From Yersinia artesiana (lineage in GTDB: Bacteria; Pseudomonadota; Gammaproteobacteria; Enterobacterales; Enterobacteriaceae): a stretch of DNA of 43,824 nucleotides. The notes below the pieces were generated by a model. That model had not been told where the DNA came from. It searched no databases and saw only the letters and a program-made list of their open reading frames with translations. This document shows positions 3,418-5,330 of the stretch, in pieces. The DNA is taken from assembly GCF_902726545.1 (NCBI RefSeq), contig NZ_CACVAD010000040.1:1-43824 (forward strand), written 5' to 3'. Both the position numbers and the translations under genes were made by a program. Position 1 is the stretch's first letter, and each line of letters opens with the position of its first letter.

Positions 3418-3446
3418 GCATCCAAAACACCCTGCTGATTCGTATA
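3418..3446 (+). promoter_or_regulatory. candidate SigK-type ECF promoter of FAS1 gene
   Basis: GCATCC (3418-3423), a 17-base spacer, then CGTATA (3441-3446). This resembles the mycobacterial SigK promoter form (-35 CCATCC, -10 CGAAT-like, spacer about 16-17). It lies 45 bases before the FAS1 ATG, right after a terminator. The predicted leader can form a hairpin (TGAGG 3455-3459 with CCTCA 3470-3474; outer GTAG/CTAC) just before the AGGAATA ribosome site. The sigma assignment is inferred from the adjacent sigma gene. Confidence 0.55.
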
Positions 3447-3491
3447 GGTAGATGTGAGGCAAGGCTTCACCTCAACCTACAGGAATACATT

Positions 3492-4052
3492 ATGAAAACG
3501 CTCATTCGTACCGCTATCTGTGCTTCTTTAGTCTTCAGCAGTGTTTCTATGGCCGCCATGATGTCTGACACTGTAATGGTCGGGGGCGCGTCGATGCTCC
3601 CAAGCAAAAATATTATCGAGAATGCAGTCAACTCAAAAGATCACACCACCTTGGTTGCCGCAGTTAAAGCTGCCGGGTTGGTGGATACCCTACAAGGGGC
3701 TGGCCCCTTTACCGTGTTTGCGCCCACCAATGCCGCCTTTGCAAAATTGCCGGCAGGTACGGTGGAAAATTTGGTCAAACCAGAAAATAAAGCCTTGCTC
3801 ACGCAAATCCTGACCTATCACGTGGTGGCCGGGAAGTACGATATGAAACAACTGGAAAGTAAGATCAAGGCCGGGGGCGGGACTGCCGAACTGAAAACGG
3901 TCAACGGCCAGCCATTATGGATTATGAATAATGGGCCGCATAATATTCAGATTAAAGATGGCAAAGGTAACATCGCGAATATCAGTACCTATGATGTACA
4001 ACAGAAAAATGGCGTGATCGATGTTATTGATACTGTCCTGATGCCTAAATAA
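3492..4052 (+). CDS. secreted FAS1 (fasciclin) domain protein
   Basis: A 186-residue protein with a signal peptide (about 20-23 residues, ending near SMAA) and one FAS1 domain. The H1 motif GPFTVFAPTNAAFAKLP, the central YHVV and the H2-like GVIDVIDTVLMP are all present. FAS1 domains mediate adhesion or protein interaction; bacterial members include mycobacterial MPT70/MPT83. It has no lipobox cysteine, so it is predicted to be soluble in the periplasm or exported. ATG at 3492 is chosen for the signal peptide and the AGGAATAC site; the reading frame is open further upstream but lacks a start signal. It lies directly ahead of a SigK-like sigma/anti-sigma pair that probably controls it. Confidence 0.88.
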   Translation: MKTLIRTAICASLVFSSVSMAAMMSDTVMVGGASMLPSKNIIENAVNSKDHTTLVAAVKAAGLVDTLQGAGPFTVFAPTNAAFAKLPAGTVENLVKPENKALLTQILTYHVVAGKYDMKQLESKIKAGGGTAELKTVNGQPLWIMNNGPHNIQIKDGKGNIANISTYDVQQKNGVIDVIDTVLMPK

Positions 4053-4101
4053 AACCGGTCTATACTGGGTGCAGTGTCTCACTGCACCTGACGGTTTTTT
4101 T
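4051..4101 (+). terminator. intrinsic terminator/attenuator between FAS1 and sigma genes
   Basis: An inner 8-bp stem GGTGCAGT (4068-4075)/ACTGCACC (4081-4088) and an outer stem AAAACCG (4051-4057)/CGGTTTT (4092-4098) are followed by seven T. It overlaps the FAS1 stop and ends 12 bases before the sigma start, so the sigma gene would be read at reduced level by read-through. Confidence 0.7.
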
Positions 4102-4113
4102 AGGGATTGGCGC

Positions 4114-4668
4114 ATGAATGAATGTTCTGTGGAACAGCAGGTCGGGCTGATAGATGCCATTGCTCAAGGCGATCAGTCCGCTTTTGAAAAGCTTTACCGT
4201 CTCACATCTCCTCGATTATTCGCAGTCGCCCAACGCATGTTGCGTAATCCCGCCCGGGCAGAAGAAGTTTTACACGACAGTTTTCTCACGGTCTGGAGCC
4301 GGGCCGGTCATTACAATGCTCAACTCAGTGCGCCACTCACCTGGTTAACTCATATTGTTCGCAACCGGGCTATCGACCTGATGCGAGGCAATGATAATCG
4401 CCTGCAACCATTAAGCGATGACGAAACCGATTCGCTGACCGACAACACTCTGACACCACTGGCGCAATTGCAGCAAGACAGTGAGGCTAAGCAACTAGCC
4501 GATTGTCTGACACATCTGCCCGTTGAGCAGCGCCAAAGTATTATGCTGGCTTATTATCAAGGGCTTTCTCATGGGGAAATCTCTGTTCATTTACAGCAAC
4601 CCCTCGGTACGATAAAAAGCTGGATACGTCGTGCACTGGACCATCTAAAGGACTGTGTAGGCTTATGA
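4114..4668 (+). CDS. ECF sigma factor, SigK/RpoE-like
   Basis: A 184-residue group 4 sigma-70 factor. Region 2 (about 20-90) contains AEEVLHDSFLTVWSRA and the RNRAIDLMR end. Region 4 (about 125-180) contains LPVEQRQSIMLAYYQGLSHGEI and the recognition helix PLGTIKSWIRRALDHLK. It has three cysteines: C4, C131 and C181. The last two match in spacing the redox-active pair of mycobacterial SigK (C133/C183). ATG at 4114 follows AGGGATT; the frame is open upstream but that part would run through the terminator. The stop overlaps the anti-sigma ATG (ATGA), indicating translational coupling. I infer that it activates the FAS1 gene and itself. Confidence 0.88.
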   Translation: MNECSVEQQVGLIDAIAQGDQSAFEKLYRLTSPRLFAVAQRMLRNPARAEEVLHDSFLTVWSRAGHYNAQLSAPLTWLTHIVRNRAIDLMRGNDNRLQPLSDDETDSLTDNTLTPLAQLQQDSEAKQLADCLTHLPVEQRQSIMLAYYQGLSHGEISVHLQQPLGTIKSWIRRALDHLKDCVGL

Positions 4669-5330
4669 AAAACAGACGCGAATATGACTCAGCACTCGCC
4701 GCAGAATATGCGTTGGGCACCCTGCGCGGGCTGGCACGAATGCGTTTTGAACGCAGGGTCCGCCGCGACCCACGGCTAGCCGCTGATGTTGCCAGTTGGC
4801 AAAGCCTATTTACTCAATTAGATAATCAGCTTGCCCCGCTAGCACCACCAGAGCGCGTCTGGAAACGGCTCGAATTGCAGTTGCCCCCTGTCAATATCCG
4901 CCACATAAAGCGAAACTCTTGGTCTTATGCCGGTTGGGCCGTCGCTGCGAGCCTGGCCGCAATATTGCTCATCCCGCGTTTATGGGTCGAGCCGCCGACA
5001 GCCATTCCGGTGGCCGTGCTGTCCAATAGCCAGCAGAACGGCCAATGGGTGGTCAGTCTGGAAAAATCGACTCGCCGTTTGACATTAACACCACTGAATC
5101 CGGTGACTGTCAGTGATACGAATAGCCTTGAATTATGGAGTATTCCAACTGGCGAAAAACCACATTCATTGGGGTTACTGAATACACAAGGACCGACACA
5201 ACTGACATTGGCTGAAAACCAGTTAACGGGTAATTCAATACTGGCAATCAGTTTGGAACCTCATGGTGGCTCGCCTACTGGCCAACCTACCGGGGCAGTC
5301 TTGTTTAGCGGACCATTACAAAATCTATAA
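4665..5330 (+). CDS. anti-sigma factor, RskA family
   Basis: A 221-residue single-pass membrane protein. The N-terminal sigma-binding part (about 1-75) contains [12 protein letters not shown] and the helix pattern typical of RskA-type anti-sigma domains. One membrane segment spans about residues 86-104. The periplasmic RskA domain shows [19 protein letters not shown] and ends with [18 protein letters not shown], both family landmarks. It is encoded immediately after, and overlapping, its probable partner sigma factor. In the family, regulated proteolysis or redox change in the sigma factor releases the sigma. The tam gene starts 25 bases downstream and may share the transcript. Confidence 0.87.

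Follow-up and report, generated by a model that had tools for sequence, protein, structure and literature searches.

The question raised by this locus is whether a FAS1 gene, an ECF sigma factor gene and the gene for a membrane anti-sigma factor, lying side by side in an enterobacterium, form a single regulatory switch that has the FAS1 protein as its output. The locus lies in the window, the whole 43,824-nucleotide stretch of Yersinia artesiana DNA that was analysed (NZ_CACVAD010000040.1). All three genes were found there on the + strand, in the order fas1 (3492-4052), which encodes a secreted, adhesion-type FAS1 protein of 186 aa with a single domain and is called mpt83 in PMC7509140, sigK (4114-4668), encoding an ECF sigma factor of 184 aa, and rskA (4665-5330), encoding an RskA-type anti-sigma factor of 221 aa, with the start of rskA overlapping the stop of sigK by 4 bp. 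The cassette is flanked by ompX, rhtA, a GNAT acetyltransferase gene, tam and dps. The coordinates, the Pfam matches and the overlap bear out the initial sequence-only reading, which had described FAS1, ECF sigma and overlapping membrane anti-sigma as adjacent genes, and the neighbours agree with its placing of them in the middle of core genes.

The same reading knew of no described role in Yersinia, and in this it was wrong. The minimal cassette mpt83-sigK-rskA has been described in Y. enterocolitica (Veyrier et al. 2020, PMC7509140), where it is credited to Veyrier et al. 2008; this was the only paper treating the Yersinia cassette that our literature search found. Luciferase was placed on the fas1 (mpt83) promoter both in E. 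coli, which has neither SigK nor RskA, and in Y. enterocolitica (PMC7509140). SigK alone gave some promoter activity, there was none with full-length RskA or RskA 1-85, and RskA 1-179 gave full activation, while SigK C181S was minimally active in E. coli (PMC7509140). A SigK-binding site upstream of mpt83 is stated in that paper, as is that the inducing signal is unknown. The cassette is therefore real and already known, and the novelty that had been implied for it is unsupported.

We propose that the locus is very probably the Yersinia copy of the SigK-RskA-FAS1 switch. RskA, as a single-pass inner-membrane protein, would hold SigK by means of its cytoplasmic N-terminal domain; RNA polymerase carrying SigK would then transcribe fas1 from the GCATCC-N17-CGTATA promoter (3418-3446), and the FAS1 protein would be exported. 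What has been published on the orthologous cassette supports this mechanism well, and we infer that the copy in the window behaves like that of Y. enterocolitica. What is seen directly here is the gene order, a conserved promoter, conserved cysteines and a regulon that, by the strict motif, comprises one operon in this genome. The logic of sigma factor, anti-sigma factor and FAS1 target that had been read from the sequence, together with its comparison to SigK-RskA-MPT83, is thus upheld both by the conserved promoter and by the reporter tests in Y. enterocolitica (PMC7509140).

The promoter on the + strand consists of GCATCC (3418-3423), a 17-nt spacer and CGTATA (3441-3446); position 3418, at which the sequence-only reading had begun the cassette, is the first base of this promoter and not a coding start. 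GCATCC-N16/17-CGTAT was found 5' of fas1 in all 20 cassette-bearing Yersinia genomes, and GCATCC-N15-18-CGTA in 8/8 loci of the same family outside the genus. Named genomes of several phyla were also scanned; among the 80 best FAS1 loci, GCATCC-N15-18-CGT lay upstream in 18, and all 18 continued as CGTA. The controls for these 80 loci gave a mean of 1.04 and a maximum of 3 in 50 shuffles, one match on the opposite strand, and none either downstream or with the reversed pattern. The spacing was 16 in 17 of the 18 motif-bearing loci and 17 in the remaining one; with the three enterobacterial loci set aside the site is still present in 15/77, and 62 of the best 80 loci are without it. We therefore define the promoter across phyla as GCATCC-N16-CGTA, with N17 in most Yersinia; the accessible parts of the literature yielded no published mycobacterial SigK consensus for comparison. 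Between this promoter and the start codon lies the fas1 5' leader (3447-3491, + strand), which is well conserved in Yersinia. RNAalifold returned no consensus fold from 28 aligned leaders, and the idea of a conserved 5'-leader hairpin was dropped. In two Yersinia genomes (G005 and G019; loci L099 and L115) an insertion parts the SigK promoter and the leader from the fas1 start codon.

The proteins are likewise those expected of such a switch. SigK matches Pfam Sigma70_r2 (3.2e-14) and Sigma70_r4_2 (5.5e-14), and of its 16 matches among solved structures the best is M. tuberculosis SigK (4nqw, E=5.1e-22). Its Cys131 and Cys181 align with Cys133 and Cys183 of M. tuberculosis SigK, and the two cysteines are kept in 27/27 and 26/27 distinct sequences. 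Against the NCBIfam SigK subfamily model NF007228 the protein scored 139.1 bits, under the curated cut-off of 226 bits, and so falls outside the SigK subfamily as modelled. This would agree with a place in ECF19 and not ECF18; PMC7509140 assigns M. tuberculosis SigK to ECF18 and the Y. enterocolitica protein to the neighbouring ECF19. The published group numbers themselves disagree, as M. tuberculosis RskA is put in AS19-1 by PMC7406223. RskA of the window matches RskA_C (PF10099, E=4.2e-19), the only such match in the window's genome, and by hydropathy a single hydrophobic stretch (about residues 88-108) separates a cytoplasmic N-terminal domain from the C-terminal RskA_C domain. Across the 20 genus genomes that carry it, RskA is 65-100% identical. 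One of the Yersinia genomes (G007) also has a second, distant sigma and RskA-like pair (L022, G007:C2:3138552), with 31% identity to RskA.

The presumed output of the switch matches Pfam Fasciclin (PF02469, E=4e-34) and is encoded by the sole FAS1 gene of the window's genome. Its N-terminus is hydrophobic and, by hydropathy, resembles a signal peptide. A lipobox has the pattern [LVI][ASTVI][GAS]C, and none was found in the first 35 residues. The presumed site of FAS1 action is the periplasm or the surface. The protein is full length and 87-100% identical in 19 of the 20 matching genus genomes, with a 96% match between the window and Y. frederiksenii. In the remaining genome, G023 (L116, L117), fas1 is broken such that only residues 1-58 and 127-186 match, and sigK and rskA are intact. 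In the deep-branching genomes G008 and G016, FAS1 is 94 and 93% identical, compared with 65 and 66% for RskA and 68 and 67% for Tam. This far slower evolution of FAS1 than of its neighbours RskA and Tam in deep Yersinia branches suggests, as judged from sequence, tight functional constraint. We also looked to neighbouring genes for a clue to function, but the eight flanking ORFs at five distant loci had no theme in common, and five of the eight gave either no Pfam match or weak, sub-cut-off zinc-ribbon matches.

If SigK acts on fas1, it might also act elsewhere, but that it has a wider regulon reached through divergent sites, with FAS1 merely the most obvious target, we consider rather unlikely. 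GCATCC-N16/17-CGTA occurs 7 times in the window's genome and the reversed control 6 times, so that across a genome the motif does not by itself predict SigK sites. Five of the 7 matches fall within long ORFs; the other two are the fas1 site itself and an intergenic palindrome. The palindromic match, GCATCC...GGATGC followed by CGTA, lies outside long ORFs at position 70272-70297 of another contig of this genome (G000:C23, L231); as the single site outside long ORFs apart from that of fas1 it could be counted in favour of a wider regulon, and its palindromic form speaks against this. Genus-wide, GCATCC-N16/17-CGTAT gave 76 matches against 38 in the control, of which 20 are the fas1 site, 10 and 4 belong to two recurrent sequences, each of which falls within an ORF in the single copy checked, and the leftover 42 are near the control. 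The strict scan, using exact patterns, thus found no other convincing SigK site in the window's genome; sites that have diverged would be missed by it. The wider reading also draws on the eleven genes governed by SigK in M. tuberculosis (PMC7509140) and on the linkage seen among the best 80 FAS1 loci. A sigma match occurred within 2.5 kb in at least 27 of these 80 loci and in none of the other 53, and an RskA match in at least 24 of those 27, both counts being lower bounds since some contigs are short. Nine of the 18 motif-bearing loci had no sigma match within 2.5 kb (one of the nine, L215, has a nearby RskA-like ORF), so that control in trans may occur elsewhere. The description of the module as self-contained fits the strict motif scan, as far as such a scan reaches, divergent sites lying beyond it.

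That this strain gained the cassette recently, by mobile transfer, is very improbable. SigK and RskA are absent from E. coli, and the rhtA-dps neighbours are absent from the 9-kb stretch around 6/8 same-family cassettes outside the genus, which shows that the cassette changed place at some point. However, the examined Yersinia loci share the site between rhtA/GNAT and tam/dps, and two other genera (L057, L060) share it with them. The search across Yersinia and other gammaproteobacteria that had been suggested at the outset found rskA and fas1 together in 20/25 genus genomes, the other 5 lacking both, a coincidence that is not due to chance. In three of these five, as judged by eye, remnants persist at the site: the fas1 3' end and the TATACT box (see below) are left in G020 and the rskA 3' end in G011 and G021, while no remnant was seen in G022 or G001. 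It follows that the cassette is ancestral and has been repeatedly lost. On a RhtA tree with two cassette-bearing outgroups, its presence takes 5 changes (4-5 over bootstrap replicates), at least 2 of them forced by well-supported branches. Recent acquisition was accordingly rejected on the synteny and the remnants. The adjacent tam was also considered as a possible member of the cassette and ruled out, as it is kept in 4/5 cassette-less genomes and broken in the cassette-bearing G004; it occurs only in fragments in G004 and G001 (L090, L091).

Beyond the genus, an order-wide draw found FAS1 in 62/295 genomes, ten of them of the same family, including that of the window and one other Yersinia. 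The eight same-family genomes outside the genus all carry fas1-sigK, and seven of the eight have an RskA match, none being found at L059. Among the 52 genomes with FAS1 in other families of the order, 34 loci were checked, and none had both sigma and RskA in its flank, with a weak sigma match at a single locus (L051). These unlinked FAS1 genes, and the much stronger conservation of FAS1 than of RskA, would suit an independent housekeeping fas1 to which sigK-rskA is adjacent only by accident, but the conserved ECF-type promoter 5' of fas1, the joint presence, absence and loss of fas1 and rskA, and the published reporter activity at the fas1 promoter (PMC7509140) leave this reading with next to no probability.

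Within the SigK-RskA-FAS1 switch as we propose it, the spacer between fas1 and sigK holds a further conserved element. Shortly 3' of the fas1 stop, on the + strand, lies a TATACT box (4061-4066), a candidate -10 element of a separate sigK-rskA promoter. Counted from the first base of the stop codon of fas1, TATACT stands 8-12 nt further on in 28/28 enterobacterial cassettes. It is the only hexamer common to 12/12 diverse loci, a set that includes two pairs of close relatives, whereas 4 was the maximum over 500 mononucleotide shuffles. Among the best 80 named FAS1 loci it was present only in the three enterobacterial ones, and its invariance between fas1 and sigK in enterobacteria is possibly undescribed. 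The box is followed on the same strand by a candidate fas1 terminator (4066-4101), comprising a hairpin with an 11-pair stem at 4066-4090 and then a T run. Most relatives have a stem at the corresponding position, with a shorter one in G019, and the T run follows it in most Yersinia and is missing from some relatives; three terminator-like sites were predicted in the region, near the shuffle mean of 2.4. We infer that fas1 transcripts stop partly at this hairpin. One tentative explanation, to which we give less than even credence, is that TATACT is, in enterobacteria, the housekeeping -10 of an uncoupled sigK-rskA promoter, placed immediately 5' of the hairpin and partly overlapping it, and that most fas1 transcripts end at this hairpin, so that a basal supply of sigma and anti-sigma factor would be provided apart from a high, SigK-driven output of FAS1, the regulon being one operon. 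A classical sigma-70 promoter at this position was not called by the promoter scan, and the -35 candidate seen by eye stands at a variable distance (14-17 nt) from the fas1 end, so that such a promoter remains conjecture, as does the pairing of a basal sigK-rskA promoter with a fas1 terminator.

Interest in SigK-RskA stems mainly from its control of major antigens of the tubercle bacilli. A copy from a gammaproteobacterium, with an apparent one-operon regulon, one FAS1 and one RskA, offers a cleaner system in which to approach the signal and the role of FAS1, a value already recognised in print through the use of Y. enterocolitica. Besides the cross-phylum promoter definition, the present analysis adds the TATACT element and the evidence that the cassette is ancestral and was lost more than once.

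Of the known systems, the Y. enterocolitica cassette is the closest, sharing the genus, the gene order, the SigK site 5' of fas1 and the functional Cys181, and the RskA of the window has the length needed for the published truncations 1-179 and 1-85; the difference is one of species or strain only, the window copy being known from its sequence. The M. tuberculosis SigK-RskA-MPT70/MPT83 system has in common with it an ECF sigma factor with two conserved cysteines, an RskA_C anti-sigma factor and a FAS1 target. It differs in that MPT83 is lipid-anchored whereas the FAS1 of the window has no lipobox, in that its SigK governs eleven genes whereas one operon is supported here, and in its assignment to ECF18 rather than the ECF19 of the Yersinia protein (PMC7509140). 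A further comparison is with RpoE-ChrR (ECF11) of Rhodobacter sphaeroides, which also pairs an ECF sigma factor with an anti-sigma partner and whose structure, 2q1z, is the second-best solved match to SigK. ChrR is zinc-dependent, whereas the anti-sigma factor of the window contains no cysteine, and hence none of the N-terminal cysteines of a ChrR-type zinc motif, and carries a membrane segment.
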